Of a stretch of 64,000 bases of DNA, positions 12,654 to 21,581 are shown in pieces. The stretch is from NCBI RefSeq assembly GCF_014192375.1, contig NZ_JACHXV010000002.1, forward strand, positions 235,569 to 299,568. The letters run 5' to 3'. This DNA comes from Endobacter medicaginis (GTDB taxonomy: Bacteria > Pseudomonadota > Alphaproteobacteria > Acetobacterales > Acetobacteraceae). A program made the translations under genes and the position numbers. Positions within the stretch are counted from its first letter, which is position 1; every line of letters starts with the position of its first letter. The notes beneath the pieces are model-generated. The model had not been told where the DNA came from and ran no database searches. It was given only the letters and a program-made list of their open reading frames with translations.

Positions 12654-13682
12654 GGCTTCCTGTTTCGCCTTCGCCGCCGCGGCGGCAGCCGAGATGCGGG
12701 CCGCGCGCAGCGCCTCGAGATCGGCGAGTGCCGCTGACTGGTCGATGATGTGCTGGAAGATCAGGTCGAAGGCCGACCCGTCCGACGCGGCGCGATGCGC
12801 CGACACACTGATGGTGATGCCGCAGCCCGGGATGAAGCCGGTCCACAGCGGCATCGCCACCAGGCCGGGATCGGAGGCCAGCAGCGCCATGTCGAAGCCG
12901 GTATGGTCGGCGATGCTCACGCATTCGGGCAGTTTCGTCGGTGGCGCGGCCGGCCCACGGGGCGGGGCTGGGCTGGCGGGCGGGGCATCCGCCGCCTGGG
13001 CGGCAGGCCCTTCCGGGGTGGCGAGGGCCTCGATCTTCGGCATCGCCGTGGCGGGTGGCACCGGGCTTGCCTGCGGGAAGGCACGGGTGGCGGTCAGCGT
13101 ATCGGGCGCATCGGGGCCGCCGGTCAGCGGCGGCAGGATCAGCCCATAGGTGGTCTGCAAGGCGACGCGCAGCTTGGCGTCGCCGACCAGTTCCTCGGGG
13201 CCATAGCGATGCAGCCGCAGGATCTCGGTGGCGCGATTGCCGGCGAACTGGCTGAACACCACGGCGATCTGCTCCACCGGCGCGACGGAAGCGGCCCCTG
13301 CGGCATCAGCCGGCTTGTCGCCCGCCTTCTGGACCGCCCGCGTGCCGGCGCGCGGCCTGACTGCTTTGGAGCGCAGCAGCAGCGCGGCGACGAAGGTGTC
13401 GTGTCCATCGGCGGTCGGCCGGCGGATGGTCTGGCTGTCGAACTCGCGTCCATGCAGCGCCGCCTCCACCTCCGCCGGCGTCATGCCGAGCCGCAGCCCG
13501 CCGATCGCGAAGCCGGCCGGGTCGAGCAGCGCCGGGGTCGCTGTCGGCGGCGGAGTGGGAGCGGGGGCGGCTGCCGAGGGCGGGGGCGGGTCAGCCGCCG
13601 GCGGCGCACAGGACGCAGACAGGCTCCACAGCCCGGCCACCGCCCCGGCGGCCCACCCCGCATACCGCCCCGTATGACGCAT
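12627..13682 (-). CDS. Exported proline/alanine-rich protein of unknown function
   Basis: A 351-residue protein with a signal sequence that may be a lipoprotein signal (SLSASC, Cys25). It then has a Pro/Ala linker (26-52) and a segment GGLRLGMTPAEVEAAL (about 60-76) of the type seen at the start of small periplasmic SmpA/BamE-like repeats. A second Pro/Ala linker (about 215-255) precedes a C-terminal domain with three further cysteines and an Ala/Lys tail. I do not recognise the family. The gene ends three bases before hemA begins its 3' end on the same strand, so it probably follows hemA in the transcript. Confidence 0.7.
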   Translation of the reverse strand: MRHTGRYAGWAAGAVAGLWSLSASCAPPAADPPPPSAAAPAPTPPPTATPALLDPAGFAIGGLRLGMTPAEVEAALHGREFDSQTIRRPTADGHDTFVAALLLRSKAVRPRAGTRAVQKAGDKPADAAGAASVAPVEQIAVVFSQFAGNRATEILRLHRYGPEELVGDAKLRVALQTTYGLILPPLTGGPDAPDTLTATRAFPQASPVPPATAMPKIEALATPEGPAAQAADAPPASPAPPRGPAAPPTKLPECVSIADHTGFDMALLASDPGLVAMPLWTGFIPGCGITISVSAHRAASDGSAFDLIFQHIIDQSAALADLEALRAARISAAAAAAKAKQEAAAGHAPSL

Positions 13683-13684
13683 CC

Positions 13685-14944
13685 TCAGGCCGCCTCGACG
13701 TCATCTCGCTGACGCCGTGCCGGGCTGGCTTCCGCCATCAACTCCGACAGGGCCGCGACCAGCGCATCCATCATCGCATCGCTGTGGCGGGGGCCCGGGG
13801 TGAGGCGCAGGCGCTCCTGGCCACGCGGCACGGTGGGGTAGTTGATCGGGGTGGCGTAGATGCCGAACTCGTCGAGCAGCCGGCGCGAGATCTCGGCGAC
13901 CCGCTCCGCGTCGCCGACCGGGATCGGCACGATATGGCTGGGCGTGGGCAGATGCGGCACACCGGCCGCGTCCAGCCGGGCGCGCAGGGCGGCCACGCGC
14001 TCGAACAGGTGTTCGCGACGATGGTTCTGCGCCCGCACCGCCCGCACCGAAGCGAGTGCCGCGGCCACCACCGCGGGCGGCAGCGAGGTGGTGAAGATGA
14101 AGCCCGAGGCCGTCGAGCGCAGGAAGTCGATAATCGCGGCGCTGGCCGCGACATAGCCGCCATGGCAGCCGAACCCCTTGGCCAGAGTGCCCTCGATCAG
14201 ATCCACCTCGCCCGCGACCCCGTCACGCTCCGACACGCCGCCGCCGGTGGCGCCGTACAGACCCACCGCATGCACCTCGTCGAGATAGGTGATCGCCCCG
14301 TAGCGCTTCGCCAGCCGGCAGATCGCGCCGATATCGGCGATGTCGCCATCCATCGAATAGACACTCTCGAAGGCAATCATCTTCGGTGCATCGGCAGGTG
14401 CGGCGGCGAGCTTGGCCTCGAGATCGGCGAGATCGTTATGGGCGAAAATCACGCAACGTGCGGCCCCGGGACGACCGTTCGCCGCACCCTTGATGCCGGC
14501 GATCATCGAGGCGTGGTTCTTCTCGTCGGAAAAACAGATCCAGCCCGGCATCGAGGTCAGGATGGTCTGCAGGCTGGCCTGGTTCGACACATAGCCGGAC
14601 ACGAACAGCAGGGCCGCCTCCTTGCCGTGCAGGGCGGCGAGTTCGGCCTCGAGCGCGTCGTGCAGCGGCGAGGTGCCGGCGATGTTGCGCGTTCCGCCCG
14701 CGCCCGCGCCATGGTCGCGCAGCGCCGCGATGCCGGCCTCGACCACGTCGGGGTCGACACCCATGCCGAGATAGTCGTTGCTCGACCACACCACGATGTC
14801 ACGCGGGCCGGAGCCGCTCGCGCGGTCGTAATGCGGATAGCGTACGCCGTCACGCGCGAGCGCGGTGAAGCGCCGGTAGCGCCCCTGCGCCTGGATGTCG
14901 GCCAGCGTGCGCCGGCAATGCTGCTCGAACCCGGTGGTACCCAT
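13685..14944 (-). CDS. hemA: 5-aminolevulinate synthase
   Basis: PLP enzyme condensing glycine and succinyl-CoA to 5-aminolevulinate, the first step of haem synthesis in alphaproteobacteria (C4 pathway). I start at ATG 14944, preceded by GGGACGAG, giving 419 residues; codons further upstream to 15019 add an unrelated N terminus. Visible signatures are [38 protein letters not shown], the PLP aspartate in [11 protein letters not shown] and the Schiff-base lysine Lys256 in [13 protein letters not shown]. The length matches Rhodobacter-type HemA. Confidence 0.96.
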
Positions 14945-15086
14945 TCGCTTCGCTCGTCCCCCGCCCCACACTGCGTGCCGCCGCGCAGGGCGGGCCGCAT
15001 CCGGCGGGACATTGATCAACGGGCGCCAGATCAGACCTCCGCAGCCCCCGCGTCAATGACAACGATCAAAAATGCCCGGGTTTTCG

Positions 15087-15209
15087 TCACCAGCCATAAG
15101 GGTGCGGATGCCACCCATAGGGATGATAGTACGGGCCGCCATAGACGACACAGCCATTGAGCGCGAGCAGCGCTGCGAATGCGAGGGTGATGGTCACGGT
15201 GCGGGTCAT
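15087..15209 (-). CDS. Very small lipoprotein, 40 residues
   Basis: ATG at 15209 is preceded by GGAGGAA, an excellent ribosome site. The product has a lipoprotein signal ending ALNGC (Cys20). Its mature part is only about 20 residues, dominated by Tyr, Pro, His, Gly and Trp (GGPYYHPYGWHPHPYGW). The length, lipobox and ribosome site together argue that it is real. The His/Tyr repeats could bind metal or peptidoglycan, but no function can be assigned. It sits between hemA and another lipoprotein gene on the same strand. Confidence 0.7.
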   Translation of the reverse strand: MTRTVTITLAFAALLALNGCVVYGGPYYHPYGWHPHPYGW

Positions 15210-15303
15210 CGGCAGAGTTCCTCCCTGCCCCGGCTATTGGCCCGCGATGTGTCGGCAATCTGGCGATCACGCAACGCTCGTCGCAGATCGGTAAGTGAAT
15301 GTG

Positions 15304-15810
15304 TCAGTGCAGATAGATCCGCACGGCTCCCTGGCTGCCCGGCGGCAGGGGCTCGCTCGCCGCCCCGACCTGGACCTGGGCGATCGCCGCGCCGTCATCG
15401 ACGATCGCCTGCGCCACCGGGCCGAGCAGCGCGTGCGCCGCACGCTCGCCCCCGGCAACGGTCGCATCGACGCTGCCTGCGGCCGGCACCGTCTGACGAA
15501 GCTCGAACAGCACGTTGGGTTTGCGCGCCAGTGCCGCCTGCACCGCCTGCTTCAGCGGGGCGCGCCACTGGTCGGGAGCCGTGCCGGCCTCGATGGTGAT
15601 CAGCGGTCCCGGACCGGGCCTGCCCGGCGGGGCGGGCGGCAGATGCGGCTGCGGCGGCAGGCCGGCTTTCGGATCAAAGGTGCGCTGGTCGACGATGCCC
15701 ACATGCTGGAGCCGCGCACAGCCGGAAATGAGACAGATCGTCGCCAGGGCCAACGTAGGCAGCAAGCCGAGCGGACGAAACGGGCGAACCGGGGAGCGAC
15801 GGACCATCAT
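15304..15810 (-). CDS. Lipoprotein of unknown function
   Basis: A 168-residue protein from ATGATG at 15810 (second ATG 15807). It has a lipobox in TICLISGC near residue 31, a Pro-rich linker (LPPQPHLPPAPPGRPGPGP) and a compact C-terminal domain of about 100 residues with alternating helices and strands. The last part reads QGAVRIYLH. I recognise no named family. It is divergent from the transketolase-like gene across 153 bases. Confidence 0.75.
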   Translation of the reverse strand: MMVRRSPVRPFRPLGLLPTLALATICLISGCARLQHVGIVDQRTFDPKAGLPPQPHLPPAPPGRPGPGPLITIEAGTAPDQWRAPLKQAVQAALARKPNVLFELRQTVPAAGSVDATVAGGERAAHALLGPVAQAIVDDGAAIAQVQVGAASEPLPPGSQGAVRIYLH

Positions 15811-15963
15811 GGGCGGCAGGCTTGCAGGCTTCGCCGCACAACTCAACTCCGCCCGATACGGAAAAGAGAGGGGCGACACGGCCGGCAACGGGGCTTGCCG
15901 GGGTCCGGCACGGCTGGCAAACAGTGGCTCCGAACCAATTCGACGGCTGGCGGGGAGAGCGGG

Positions 15964-17874
15964 GTGCGGGAGGCGGACATCACCATTCCGGTCGCCTACG
16001 CCCCCGCGGCCACCCCGGACCACTCTCCCGCCAATGCCCCCGGGGACGCGATTCGCCGTCTCGCCCGGATCGCCGGACTGTCGGAAGCGGACGCCGCCGA
16101 CGATCCTCTCGGCCTGCGGATGGCCGATGTCGCGGCGGTGCTCTGGCAACAGGCGCTGCGTTTCGATGCCGCCGATCCGGGCTGGGCGGATCGCGACCGT
16201 TTCGTGCTTTCGGCGCCGCGCCACAGCTTCCTGCTCTACGCGCTGCTGCATCTCACCGGACATGAAGGCATCGAGCTGCGCGACCTGCGGCGGTTCGGCC
16301 GGCTCAACAGTCCGACCGCCCGACAGGCCGCGCACGGGCTGCACCCCGCGATCGAGGCCAGTGTCGGACCGCCCGGCCAGGGGCTGGCGATGGGCGCCGG
16401 CATGGCGCTGGCCGAGCGCATGCTGGCCGGCCGGTTCGGCCGCTCGCTGGTCGATCACCGCATCTGGGTGATGGCGGGTGCGGCCGATCTCGCCGCCGGC
16501 GTGGCACAGGAGGCGGCAGCCCTCGCCGGGCGCATGGGGCTCGAACGGCTCACGGTGCTGTTCGAGGAGACCGATCCCGAGGAAGGGCGCCTGCATGCGG
16601 CCCGGTTCGCCGCCTGCGGCTGGAGCGTGCGGCGGGTGGCGCGCGACGATGCCGAGGCGATCGCCTCTGCGCTGGCGGCCGCACAGCGCGGCCGCCGCCC
16701 GGCTCTGATCGCCTGTGCGGGCGCGAGCACGGCGGCTGGCGGTGGTGGTCAGGTCAGTGACTGGGTCGAGACCGGACGGCGCAATACCGGCACCCGCCGC
16801 GGCTGGCTCAAGCGCCTCAAGACCCATGCCAGGCGCGAGGAGTTCCTGCGCCTGCAGGCCGGTCGTCTGCCGCAGGACTGGAAGCCGGTCTGGCTCGACC
16901 GCGCTGCGCACGAGCCGCGCCGGCTGCCTCATCAGCCCGACGCGCAGGCGGGCCTGCCGCCTGTGCTGCACACGCTGCTGCCGGAGCTGGTCGGGCTGTC
17001 GGCCCGCCACGAGGGTGAGACCGGCGCCGCCTGCGTTCCGGCGCGCCCGGGCGCGGAGCTGGCCTGCGGCACCCAGGAGCACGGCATGGCCGGTCTGCTG
17101 AACGGGCTGGCGCTGCATGGCGGCCTGCGCGGCATCGGCATCGCCTCGTTCGTCTCCGTCGACCGCATGCGGGTCGCACTGCGGCTGGCGGCGCTGATGC
17201 GGCTGGGGGTGATCTACCTGCTCGCCGATGACGGGCTTTCGCGCGGCGAGGACGGTCCGGCCTTCCAGCCGGTCGAGCAGCTCGCCTCGCTGCGCGCGAT
17301 GCCGAATGTGGCGGTGTTCCGTCCCGGCGACCCGTCGGAGCTCGCCGAATGCTGGACGCTGGCGCTGGAGCGCACCGAGGGGCCGAGCGTGATCGCGCTG
17401 GGCCGTGGCGCGTTGCCGCGGCTGCGCGAGGTCGGCGGCGGACTGGGCGCGGTGATCGGGCCGCTCGAATCCAGCCCCGCGCCGCTGCCCTGTGCGATGG
17501 GCGGCTACGTCCTGCGCGAGGCGCGCGCGCGGCGGATGGCGACGCTGATTGCCACGGGTGCGGAGCTGCCGGTCGCACTCGCCGCACGCGACATCCTGCG
17601 CGGCTCCGGCATCGACGTGGCCGTGGTTTCGCTGCCCTGCTGGGAGTTGTTCGCCCGCACGCCGGCGGACTATCGTGCGCGTGTGCTGGGCGAGGTGCCC
17701 CGGTTCGGGATCGAGGCGGCGTCCGGCTTCGGCTGGGAGCGCTGGCTCGGCGACGGCGGGGTCTTCATCGGCATGGACGGGTTCGGCGCCTCCGCCCCCG
17801 CGCCGGATCTGTATCGACATTTCGGCATCACGCCGGATGCTGTGGCCGACGCGGTGCGTCGCGCCCTCGGCTAG
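15964..17874 (+). CDS. Transketolase-like protein lacking cofactor-binding residues
   Basis: The 636-residue product follows transketolase along its length (start GTG 15964 after GGGGAG). FVLSAPRHSFLLYALLHLTG, GQGLAMGAGMALAERML, TQEHGMAGLLNGLALHGG and GEDGPAFQPVEQL align with canonical segments. The diphosphate/Mg motif, normally GDGCL, reads GAADL (172-176), and the usual asparagine segment is FEETDPEEG. The usual GHGS histidine is Arg and the GHPE histidine is Gln. Only the activator Glu (QEH) is kept. It heads an operon with gap and pgk. No stops or frameshifts are present, so it is probably translated, perhaps as a non-catalytic paralogue. Confidence 0.85.
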   Translation: MREADITIPVAYAPAATPDHSPANAPGDAIRRLARIAGLSEADAADDPLGLRMADVAAVLWQQALRFDAADPGWADRDRFVLSAPRHSFLLYALLHLTGHEGIELRDLRRFGRLNSPTARQAAHGLHPAIEASVGPPGQGLAMGAGMALAERMLAGRFGRSLVDHRIWVMAGAADLAAGVAQEAAALAGRMGLERLTVLFEETDPEEGRLHAARFAACGWSVRRVARDDAEAIASALAAAQRGRRPALIACAGASTAAGGGGQVSDWVETGRRNTGTRRGWLKRLKTHARREEFLRLQAGRLPQDWKPVWLDRAAHEPRRLPHQPDAQAGLPPVLHTLLPELVGLSARHEGETGAACVPARPGAELACGTQEHGMAGLLNGLALHGGLRGIGIASFVSVDRMRVALRLAALMRLGVIYLLADDGLSRGEDGPAFQPVEQLASLRAMPNVAVFRPGDPSELAECWTLALERTEGPSVIALGRGALPRLREVGGGLGAVIGPLESSPAPLPCAMGGYVLREARARRMATLIATGAELPVALAARDILRGSGIDVAVVSLPCWELFARTPADYRARVLGEVPRFGIEAASGFGWERWLGDGGVFIGMDGFGASAPAPDLYRHFGITPDAVADAVRRALG

Positions 17875-17910
17875 GTCAAACACTGCAATCGTCTGCGAGG
17901 AAACATCGAT

Positions 17911-18930
17911 ATGCCGGTTAAAGTCGCCATCAACGGGTTCGGTCGCATCGGGCGCCTGGTGCTGCGGGGGATCGTCGAGAGCGGCCGCACCGATGTGGTG
18001 CCGGTGGCGATCAACGATCTCGGCAGCGTCGAGGCCAATGCCCATCTGTTCCGCTACGACAGCGTGCACGGTCGCTTCCCCGGCACGGTGAAGGTCGAGG
18101 GCGACAGCCTCCTCATCGAGCACAACGGCAAGACCTACGGTCCGATCAAGGTCTCGGCCGAGCGCGACCCGTCCAAGGTGCCTTACCAGGGCGTCGACGT
18201 GGCGATGGAGTGCACGGGTCTGTTCACCAAGAAGGAATCGGCCGCCCAACTCATCACCGCCGGTGCGCGCAAGGTGCTGGTCTCCGCCCCCGCCGACGGC
18301 GTGGACGCGACCATCGTCTACGGCGTCAACCAGAACGTCATCACTCCGGAGATGACGGTGATCTCGAACGCGTCCTGCACCACGAACTGCCTCGCCCCGA
18401 TGGCCAAGGTGCTCGACGACGCGATCGGCATCGAGCGCGGCTACATGGTGACGATCCACTCCTACACCGGCGACCAGCGCACGGTGGACACGCTGCACAA
18501 GGACCCTCACCGCGCGCGTGCGGCGGCCGTCAACATGATCCCGACCTCGACCGGTGCGGCCCGCGCCGTCGGGCTGGTGCTGCCGAAGCTGAAAGGCAAG
18601 CTCGACGGCACCGCGATCCGCGTGCCGACGCCGAACGTGTCGCTGGTCTCGCTCGACATCGTGCCGGAAAAGATCCCCGGCTCGGTCGACGAGGTGAACG
18701 CGCTGTTCAAGGCCGCCGCCGAGGGGCCGCTGAAGGGCATCCTGGTCTACAGCACCGATCCGCTGGTCAGCTCCGACTTCAACCATGTGGTCGCGTCCTG
18801 CTCGTTCGACGCCACCCAGACCGCGCTGGTCGATGGCGGCAAGCTGGTGCGTGTGTGCGGCTGGTATGACAACGAGTGGGGTTTCTCGAACCGCATGAGC
18901 GACACCGCCGCCGCGTTCGGTTCGGTCTGA
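17911..18930 (+). CDS. gap: Glyceraldehyde-3-phosphate dehydrogenase
   Basis: Glycolytic and gluconeogenic enzyme converting glyceraldehyde 3-phosphate, NAD and phosphate to 1,3-bisphosphoglycerate. The 339-residue protein has the Rossmann start [13 protein letters not shown], the catalytic cysteine in [13 protein letters not shown] (Cys156) and the general base His183 in HSYTGDQ. A GAGGA ribosome site precedes it. Its stop TGA shares one base with the ATG of pgk, so the two are translationally coupled. Confidence 0.97.
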
Positions 18931-20156
18931 TGGCGAGCACCGCGAAGTTCCGCAATCTCGACGCGCTCGACGCAAAGGGAAAGCGCGTGCTGCTGCGCGC
19001 CGACCTCAACGTGCCGATGCGCGATGGGGCGGTGAGCGACCTCACCCGCATCGAGCGTCTCGCGCCCACCATCCGCGAACTCGCCGACAAGGGTGGCCGG
19101 GTGATCGTGGTCAGCCATTTCGACCGGCCGAAGGGCAAGCGGGTGCCGGAAATGTCGCTCGCTCCGGTCGCGAAATCGCTGGAGGCCACGCTCGGCCATC
19201 CGGTGCACTTCGCCGATGACTGCGTCGGCCCGGTGGCCGAGGCAGCGGTGGCGGCGCTCAAGGACGGCGAGGTGCTGGTGCTGGAAAACACCCGCTACCA
19301 TGCCGGCGAGGAGGCCAACGACCCCGAGATGTCGAAGGCGCTGGCATCGCTGGCCGATGTCTACGTCAACGACGCCTTCTCCGCCGCCCATCGCGCCCAT
19401 GCCTCGACCGAGGGTGTCGCGCGCCATCTGCCCGCCCATGCCGGGCGGCTGATGGAGGCGGAGCTCAATGCGCTGACGCTGGCGCTCGAGGACCCCGAGC
19501 GCCCGGTCGGCGCGGTGATCGGGGGGGCGAAGATCTCCACCAAGCTCGACCTGATCGGCAACATCCTCTCCAAGGTGGACGTGCTGATCATCGGCGGCGC
19601 GATGGCCAACACTTTCCTCGCAGCGCAGGGCGTGTCCGTCGGCAAGTCGCTCCAGGAGCCGGGCATGCACGACACCGCACGCCAGATCCTGGCGGACGCG
19701 AAGGCGCGCGGCTGCGAGATCATCCTGCCGGTGGATGCGGTGTGTGCCAGCGAGTTCAAGGCGCATGCGGCCACCACCACGGTCGGGATCGACCAGGTGC
19801 CGGCCGACCAGATGATCCTCGACGCCGGTCCGAAGACGGTGGAGCTGCTCAAGGAGAAGCTGGCGGGGCTCAAGACGCTGGTCTGGAACGGGCCGCTGGG
19901 CGCGTTCGAGATCGAGCCGTTCGACGCCGCCACCAACGCGCTGGCGCAGGAGGCGGGCCGTCTGACCCAGGCGGGCAGGCTGCGCTCGGTGGCCGGCGGC
20001 GGCGACACCGTCTCCGCGCTGCGCCATGCGGGGGCGGCAGACCAGATGAGCTATGTGTCCACCGCCGGCGGCGCATTCCTCGAATGGCTGGAAGGCAAGA
20101 CCCTGCCCGGCATCCTCGCCCTCGACGCGCTGCGCGGCATCATCGCCCCGGTCTGA
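18930..20156 (+). CDS. pgk: Phosphoglycerate kinase
   Basis: Transfers phosphate from 1,3-bisphosphoglycerate to ADP. The ATG at 18930 overlaps the gap stop and gives 408 residues, the normal length. Signatures are [11 protein letters not shown], the substrate loop [51 protein letters not shown] and the C-terminal nucleotide loop GGGDTVSAL. It is the last gene of the transketolase-like/gap/pgk operon and is followed by a strong hairpin. Confidence 0.97.
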
Positions 20157-20160
20157 GAAA

Positions 20161-20194
20161 AACGGGCTGCCGGGCGGATTTCCGGCAGCCCGTT
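20161..20194. terminator. Hairpin after pgk
   Basis: AACGGGCTGCCGG (20161-20173) and CCGGCAGCCCGTT (20182-20194) form a perfect 13-bp stem with an eight-base loop, five bases after the pgk stop. On the minus strand the stem is followed by a short T-run, so it may work in both directions. Confidence 0.75.
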
Positions 20195-20231
20195 AACCTC
20201 GCCTTAACCGGTCGGGGGCGATGCTGGGCGC

Positions 20232-20480
20232 ATGATCTCGACAAGCTCCCTCAGCGCCTTCTCCGTGCCGGGCTCGCTCACCGGTTCCCTCGCCGCCACG
20301 GCGCGCAACACGGTCGCGCAGGTCGCGGCCACGGCCTCCGCCTCGCCGCTGACCGCGACCGCCACAGCGAATGCCGGCCTGTCCGCCGCGACCTCGGCCA
20401 CGCTCGACACAAGTTCGAGCCCGCAGACACATCACGGCGTTCATTCGCATCGCGGCAGCAGGCTTGACCTGTCGATCTGA
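20232..20480 (+). CDS. Small Ala/Ser/Thr-rich protein
   Basis: An 82-residue open frame of low-complexity composition (Ala, Ser, Thr, Leu), ending in a His/Arg patch (HHGVHSHRGSR). Third codon positions are almost all G or C, as in the surrounding genes, which supports coding. There is no signal sequence and no recognised family; the ribosome site is weak. It lies between the pgk terminator and the end of the convergent FNT gene. Confidence 0.45.
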   Translation: MISTSSLSAFSVPGSLTGSLAATARNTVAQVAATASASPLTATATANAGLSAATSATLDTSSSPQTHHGVHSHRGSRLDLSI

Positions 20481-20503
20481 CGGGGACGCGCCGCGTCGCA
20501 CGC

Positions 20504-21409
20504 TCAGCCCCTGCGGAAGCGCTCCAGCGCGCCGACCAGCTTGATCGGCTTGAGTTCGTTGCGTATCTGCGCGTGATTGAGCACCGCCGCCAGCAACGTG
20601 CCACCCAGCACGTTGCCGATCAGCGTCGGCACCAGGAACCGCCAGAGGTAATCGACCACCCCGCCATCGCCGGAAGCCACCGCGAACACGGCCTCGGCCG
20701 AGCCGGCGATGATATGCGGCGTGCCGAGCAGGGCGACCAGGCTGGTGAGCAGGATGATGATCGGCACCTTGGCCGATCCGGCTGCCGGCAGCAGCCACAC
20801 CATCAGCCCGATCAGCCAGCCGGCGATGCCGCCAAGTGCGACCGTATGACCGAAACCGTGTTCCAGGGTGGCATCGCCCAGCTCACGCATTGCCGCCTTC
20901 GTGGCTTCGTCGAATAGCCCGGTCCGGGCGCTGACGATGCCCCAGATCAGCGTCGGCAGCAGATTGGCCACCAGCACGATGCCCCAGACCCGCAAGGTGC
21001 GCAGCACATAGGTCCGGCTCAATTCGGTCAGTGTGGGGATTAGCGCGGTCAGCGTGGTCTCGGTAAAGAGCTGCTGCTGGCCGAGGATGACGATCAGGAA
21101 GCCGATGCTGTAGCCGAGGCTCGACAGCAGATGCGCCCAGGGCGCATGCGGCAGCACCGAGGCGATCGTCGCGTCGGCCAGGAACGAGAATCCCACCGAC
21201 AGCCCGGCCGCCAGCCCCGACAGCGCCAGCCCGGCCGGGGCGCGCTCGAGCTCCTCGATACCCTGCGCACAGATTACCTCATGGATCACCAGCGGCCCGA
21301 CCGGAGCGCGTTCTGCCGCCTGGGCCCGTTCGAGATCATCGAGATGGGGGGAATGACGGCCGGTGGGCGGGGTGGAGTCTTCGGATACGGGATCGGTCGG
21401 GTCACTCAT
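20504..21409 (-). CDS. Formate/nitrite transporter family channel (YfdC-like)
   Basis: A 301-residue inner-membrane protein of the FNT family. The N-terminal 60 residues are hydrophilic and charged, followed by six predicted membrane helices. Family features are LALSGLAAGLSVGFSFLAD, IGFLIVILGQQQLFTETTLTA and a second half ending LIGNVLGGTLLAAVLNHAQI. The long soluble N terminus resembles YfdC rather than FocA. The start is ATG 21409; an in-frame ATG at 21490 would add 27 residues, and neither has a good ribosome site. The substrate (small monovalent anion) is inferred from family. Confidence 0.85.
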   Translation of the reverse strand: MSDPTDPVSEDSTPPTGRHSPHLDDLERAQAAERAPVGPLVIHEVICAQGIEELERAPAGLALSGLAAGLSVGFSFLADATIASVLPHAPWAHLLSSLGYSIGFLIVILGQQQLFTETTLTALIPTLTELSRTYVLRTLRVWGIVLVANLLPTLIWGIVSARTGLFDEATKAAMRELGDATLEHGFGHTVALGGIAGWLIGLMVWLLPAAGSAKVPIIILLTSLVALLGTPHIIAGSAEAVFAVASGDGGVVDYLWRFLVPTLIGNVLGGTLLAAVLNHAQIRNELKPIKLVGALERFRRG

Positions 21410-21581
21410 GCCGATTTTGCAACGTGCCGGAAGAGGCGGCGTTTCACGATCACTTCGTCCTACCAAATCTTTCAAAACCGTTATTTTCATTGCATCGCGC
21501 CGGCAGTTTCGATGACATGATCGTGAGCGCGGCCTGGAGCTGTCTTCAGCGGGCGCCCGGGTGAACGAATTCGGCGTTGAG

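Follow-up and report, generated by a model that had tools for sequence, protein, structure and literature searches.

A transketolase homologue with a degenerate cofactor site heads the gap-pgk operon in many Acetobacteraceae and is probably kept as a non-catalytic protein

The gap-pgk operon of Endobacter medicaginis is headed by a transketolase homologue (TKL) that, judged by alignment, lacks the residues that hold ThDP-Mg and is almost certainly catalytically dead. The gene lies in a 64,000-nucleotide stretch of contig NZ_JACHXV010000002.1 (the window). Degenerate transketolases were found at the corresponding place in 99 genomes of 16 genera, all in one family, and nearly all have gap adjoining. 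We consider TKL to be, probably, a maintained non-catalytic protein left behind after another transketolase took over catalysis.

The reading frame is open throughout its 636 codons, from GTG start to end, and the gene order on the forward strand is TKL, gap, pgk (Table 1). The preliminary description of this DNA had placed an open 636-codon frame at the head of gap-pgk, and both the ORF check and the short spacing to gap agree with it. All three Pfam domains are present, with scores of 166, 91 and 120 bits for Transketolase_N, Transket_pyr and Transketolase_C against gathering scores of 22, 27 and 27 (PF00456/PF02779/PF22613). An AF2 model of the protein (pLDDT 87.5, pTM 0.90) matched transketolases in Foldseek with TM up to 0.83, normalised by query, and with the Pfam scores this places TKL within the transketolase superfamily fold. 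The model of a far TKL member was also confident (pLDDT 82.8, pTM 0.85). On the reverse strand, a lipoprotein-like frame without a Pfam match (15304–15933) diverges from TKL and has its upstream region in common with the TKL start. A scan of 13000–21500 at Rfam gathering scores returned no family, and a consensus scan of 15600–18000 found no promoter or terminator. Long antisense frames over TKL were taken as G+C-rich artefacts.

Table 1. Positions in the window of TKL, its altered or retained sites and the adjoining genes.
Feature	Position	Strand	Basis or remark
TKL, transketolase-like gene of 636 codons with GTG start; cofactor and substrate site degenerate	15964..17874	+	ORF, Pfam, alignments
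Arg86, replacing the ThDP-diphosphate His (H66 in E. coli; His85 in M. tuberculosis transketolase, presumed equivalent)	16219..16221	+	Alignments; role from a passage of PMC3352088
Gln121, replacing the substrate His (H100)	16324..16326	+	Alignment
Gly-Ala-Ala at the former GDG motif, without the Asp metal ligand	16477..16485	+	Alignments
FEETDPEEG, where the second metal-ligand loop was, without the Asn and Ile ligands	16561..16587	+	Alignments
TQEHGM, with Glu372 as the aminopyrimidine Glu (E411), present in the window copy	17071..17088	+	Alignment
VDRMR, with Arg401 where canonical transketolases have Tyr; every core TKL row compared has Arg	17158..17172	+	Alignment
C-terminal domain, residues 511–632, slowest of four core-TKL partitions on the deep tree	17494..17859	+	Rate comparison
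gap, glyceraldehyde-3-phosphate dehydrogenase	17911..18930	+	Begins 36 nt past the TKL stop
pgk, phosphoglycerate kinase	18930..20156	+	ATG start inferred; listed frame opens at 18876

Losses in the window copy extend across the cofactor and substrate sites. Sites are named here by what we take to be E. coli transketolase numbering (H66, D155, H473 and so on). Aligned with canonical transketolases, TKL shows the replacements H26>D, H66>R, H100>Q (Q121), D155>A (A173), G156>A, E160>A, I187>P, R358>Q, F434/F437>S/S, Y440>R, H461>D and H473>F (F434 of TKL). The loop bearing H261 is deleted, and N185 is Thr in the main alignment and a gap in two others. E411, D469 and R520 are kept. At the metal ligands Asp (of GDG) and Asn and at the diphosphate His pair, TKL has Ala, Thr or a gap, Arg and a deletion, respectively, and a pairwise alignment with the PDB transketolase 4xeu gave the same residue losses. 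The preliminary description had read GAA for GDG, FEETDPEEG for the metal segment, and Arg and Gln for two histidines. All of these were confirmed; aligning TKL with canonical transketolases or with 4xeu did not restore the GDG Asp or the Asn ligand, and the losses proved wider than described. TKL also scores 375 bits against the TIGR00232 equivalog model, below the cut-off of 682. Five other TKLs score 254–659, whereas a canonical operonic transketolase (L007, 817) and the second transketolase of the same genome (L001, 837) pass.

These sites can be compared with a studied enzyme. A passage on the transketolase of M. tuberculosis places H85, D177, N207 and H283 at the ThDP diphosphate and calls them conserved in all transketolases (PMC3352088); the matching TKL columns, as far as the equivalence can be inferred, have all lost them. 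The same source reports that this enzyme is active despite the change of an invariant cofactor residue, and it shows Ser176 preceding Asp177. Among 29 canonical rows of our alignment, the first Gly of GDG is Gly in 17 and Ser in the other 12, so a change of that residue alone is meaningless.

The degenerate state is shared across the family, which we judge to be Acetobacteraceae from the named canonical relatives. Of 397 family genomes searched, 80 had a match at an E value no higher than 1e-100. Of these, 49 (own genome included) were degenerate by residues, and residues were read for some of the other 31. Three more (G008, G009 and G011) came from a 60-genome search, and genus searches added 47, with residues read in all; the total of 99 is a lower bound, as weaker members may have been missed. 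G008, whose operonic fragment is degenerate, counts on the degenerate side, and the fragment of G284 is outside the 99. The residue table drew on 82 distinct frames, leaving out four fragments (L026, L083, L010 and L043). Rows that did not differ over their last 300 aa were treated as one (G270 and G238, G270 also being read separately), and among the 29 canonical rows are the own true tkt and three genomes from other families of the class.

N185 and the catalytic H473 are kept in none of the 49 TKL rows and in every one of the 29 canonical rows, and the 47 further genomes likewise keep neither. E160, H66 and D155 are also kept in 29/29 canonical rows; in TKL rows the counts fall to 3, 5 and 11, with 19 for E411, and sites other than N185 and H473 range from 1 to 21. 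Since D155 and E411 persist in these minorities, no single site defines the degenerate state. Of 11 key sites, the early branches L044 and L047 keep seven and L048 keeps six, compared with all 11 in every canonical row. In a scan of named genome contigs, 79 of the best 80 loci had all 13 checked sites intact and one had two changes. Chance or sequencing error behind the degenerate site was ruled out, the state being common to 99 genomes. A separate 462-aa operonic fragment (L295, G284:C312) has lost N185 and Y440 and keeps E411, H461, D469, H473 and R520; it is possibly an early stage of loss.

Wherever a TKL locus reached far enough, gap adjoins on the same strand, mostly 15–60 nt away. It was found in 47 of 49 further stretches, the exceptions being G446, which ends near a contig end, and G140, in which the stretch examined had no gap. 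In four genera, TKL was carried by 19/19, 47/49, 13/14 and 4/4 species (83/86), and all 83 copies are degenerate by residues. The two non-carriers in the second genus have genomes of 1.5–1.7 Mb, and the one in the third is an 87% complete draft. Two of the 83 copies are broken, both in genus g30, by an in-frame stop (L271, G442) and a frameshift (L277, G448), reflecting decay or sequencing error; the TKLs of G446 and G363 are fragments cut short by contig ends. In six genomes of other genera, no TKL lies within 1.5 kb upstream of gap, which indicates that TKL is dispensable and can be lost.

Alignment and gene order suggest that TKL is a vertical descendant of the tkt that heads a tkt-gap-pgk operon in this family; its place before gap, common with canonical relatives, supports this descent. 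In a careful tree of 43 chosen rows, 25 degenerate rows form one clade with moderate support (bootstrap 86, SH-aLRT 94), nested among canonical operonic transketolases. Its sister is the canonical L018 of G016 (98/89), a genome in which both transketolases are intact. L048 of G222 falls outside the main clade, so the tree needs two changes. A quick tree of 80 rows gave the same grouping; many long branches leave the internal order of the degenerate clade unsure.

The genomes that carry TKL have another transketolase. The preliminary description had predicted a true tkt elsewhere in the genome, and a second full-length copy with an intact active site does lie at G000:C4 (L001). Among the first 52 degenerate genomes (26 + 26, before the 47 from genus searches), all 52 have a second transketolase, and at least one copy in each keeps the checked metal and catalytic sites. 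In 48 of the 52 (46 of 50 degenerate genomes, G008 and the own genome) it is of the same type as the own true tkt, at 58% identity or more. G076, G109, G222 and G272 lack an intact copy of this type and have another transketolase of 46–48% identity. By comparison, only two of 25 canonical genomes, G016 and G017, have the own-type second transketolase; G006, whose canonical operonic copy is a fragment, stands outside the 25 and has no second-type transketolase. Fisher's test of own-type transketolase against TKL gave p of about 2e-13, a value that overstates the evidence since kinship of the genomes is ignored. The co-occurrence rests on about two losses and is therefore weak as independent evidence. 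Two further observations concern these loci. G109 has a broken extra second-type copy (L242, G109:C21:40500–43500), in which query parts 21–158 and 527–679 match one 436-aa frame with an apparent internal deletion, in addition to its other intact transketolase. The own true tkt is adjoined by a frame that carries domains of both transaldolase and phosphoglucose isomerase (L034, 4238–7384, reverse strand).

Purifying selection on TKL is evident among relatives. NG86 dN/dS was 0.04–0.22 in 17 of 18 close TKL pairs (some genomes being in two pairs) and 0.36 in the remaining one; gap gave 0.01 to 0.18 in the same pairs. Across ten genome pairs, one of which sets a canonical operonic transketolase against TKL, dN/dS was 0.14–0.47 for TKL, 0.07–0.37 for the true transketolase and 0.05–0.30 for gap. 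TKL exceeded gap in all ten and the true transketolase in eight, with within-genus values up to 0.36. TKL is constrained, less so than its neighbours, and it is very probably kept by selection in the clade. At clade level, catalytic residues are lost, frame and fold are kept and selection is purifying, which is the pattern of a pseudoenzyme. A maintained pseudo-enzyme is what the preliminary description had proposed, and the degenerate orthologue in 99 genomes of 16 genera, together with selection within genera, bears this out. The dN/dS analysis it had suggested showed purifying selection in relatives; the window copy gives 0.40–0.68 to four core TKLs, at saturated dS. The best homologue of this copy is 58% identical, and the 60 genomes searched included no other of its genus. 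Its first and second codon positions have a raised G+C of 0.80 and 0.56 (0.63 and 0.45 in gap), which points to looser constraint on the protein. We nevertheless think it likely that the window copy, too, is kept by selection, as in the clade.

The distribution of constraint within the protein appears to have changed. In canonical operonic transketolases the PYR domain is slowest (relative rate 0.60) and the CT domain evolves at 1.23. On the deep tree, the corresponding rates in core TKLs are 0.99 and 0.78. Bootstrapping the columns for this CT/PYR shift, with fewer rows and raw differences, gave 1.19–2.28, which excludes 1. Among close pairs, CT was slower than PYR in five of 16 TKL pairs and in none of nine canonical pairs, and pN/pS in TKL close pairs was 0.16–0.17 for all three domains. 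Confinement of function to the C-terminal domain was considered and found no support in close pairs; what remains is a relative shift seen with the deep tree. We conclude, modestly, that the special constraint on the cofactor domains is gone and the whole TKL fold is still kept; 122 alignment columns are conserved in both TKL and canonical transketolases.

Some of the evidence could be read in other ways. One reading is that the window copy is a decaying pseudogene that has yet to meet a stop codon. Its raised GC1/GC2 and long branch fit this, as do the breaks in two of 83 copies from other species and the six genomes of other genera without TKL upstream of gap. However, when a canonical gene was evolved neutrally to 52% identity in 200 simulations without indels, a mean of 7.6 stops and a minimum of 1 arose, so that every run had at least one stop, whereas the 636 codons of the window copy are open and alignable. 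With its confident AF2 model and the purifying selection in relatives, we regard decay as improbable. A remodelled pocket that binds a new ligand or substrate, as a sugar-phosphate sensor or a ThDP-free enzyme, is a somewhat less remote prospect and still unlikely. It draws on a 24-row clade (genera g66/g84/g97) in which eight columns of the old active site are each fixed for a new residue: C at G154, T at E160, R at D381, V at E411, T at F434, A at F437, R at Y440 and D at H461. Arg at Y440 also occurs in 15/15 other core rows, and Trp stands at H473 in 20 of the 24 clade rows and 13 of the 15 others. We note that 228 of 621 columns are invariant in this clade, so fixation at some old-site columns is expected from relatedness. 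Against a new ligand, most replacements differ from clade to clade, and other loops of the pocket are either deleted or modelled with low confidence.

The remaining alternatives fare worse. It is very unlikely that TKL provides half a site, its pyrimidine domain with Glu372 joining the true transketolase's PP domain to make one active site: 19 of the 49 rows, the window copy among them, retain E411, but the 24-row clade has Val there throughout, and the window copy has also lost the aromatic pocket, H461 and H473. We give slightly less credence again to a frame kept solely as a leader coupling translation or transcription to gap-pgk. The tight spacing to gap would suit it, but constraint acts at the protein level in all domains, coupling needs no 630-codon fold, and the six genomes have gap without TKL upstream. 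Finally, TKL would be an ordinary active transketolase with unusual residues. Genome papers do give several transketolases per strain: by the portions cited, two in A. pasteurianus 386B, where APA386B_1521 adjoins gap (1520) and pgk (1519) by locus tag (PMC3751514), and four annotated in G. xylinus CGMCC 2955 (PMC5908849). The M. tuberculosis enzyme also tolerates one changed cofactor residue. TKL, however, has lost all four counterparts of the ThDP-diphosphate residues and falls far below the equivalog cut-off, and we regard activity as extremely unlikely.

The preferred reading, a retained non-catalytic protein, can be set out as a course of events. A second transketolase would have taken over catalysis, thereby freeing the operonic copy from catalytic constraint. 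That copy, produced along with GAPDH and PGK, would then have survived as a protein that folds but does not catalyse, its likeliest role being that of a partner-binding or regulatory subunit. Whether TKL acts by binding a protein partner we judge to be evenly balanced, and that such a partner is the active transketolase is possible, at tentative confidence. In active transketolase most dimer contacts lie in domains I and II and few in domain III, according to a passage of PMC3352088; by analogy, a TKL dimer offering a free C-terminal domain to a partner is plausible.

Known systems place TKL as follows. It shares descent, three-domain fold and position before gap with canonical bacterial transketolase (TIGR00232; PF00456/PF02779/PF02780), as in the operonic tkt of Acetobacteraceae; unlike these, it lacks the ThDP-Mg ligands and substrate histidines, has deleted loops and scores below the equivalog cut-off. 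A split-chain transketolase (PDB 6yak/6yaj), with the fold on two polypeptides, matches TKL in sequence; it is a two-chain transketolase by name, whereas TKL is a single chain without the site. The nearest known case, and by analogy the best precedent, appears to be human TKTL1. TKTL1 is a vertebrate duplicate with a deletion of its own; in the bacteria, by contrast, the operonic gene itself appears to have died in hosts that have another transketolase. TKTL1 is reported to have virtually no activity alone, to coexist with active transketolase and to pair with TKT in TKTL1-TKT heterodimers, with an effect on pentose phosphate flux (PMC6555833). TKL resembles it as a transketolase relative that coexists with an active enzyme and is predicted to be inactive itself. 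One speculative extension, which we hold doubtful, is that TKL plays in these bacteria the part that TKTL1 plays in humans. Expressed from the gap-pgk operon, the dead enzyme would bind GAPDH or the active transketolase and govern how flux is divided between pentose phosphate cycling and lower glycolysis, its duty having moved from the cofactor domains towards the C-terminal domain. Searches of open-licence PMC literature on inactive or pseudoenzyme transketolases and on acetic acid bacteria (for one query, the best 15 of 105 matches) returned no title or abstract opening that described TKL.

A central carbon enzyme thus seems to be dead in its operon across a large bacterial group and yet kept as a protein. 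TKL may represent a natural separation of the catalytic from the non-catalytic roles of the transketolase fold, the C-terminal domain included. Published metabolic maps appear to count such genes as active transketolase. If TKL regulates transketolase or GAPDH, sugar flux in these bacteria would have a new point of control.
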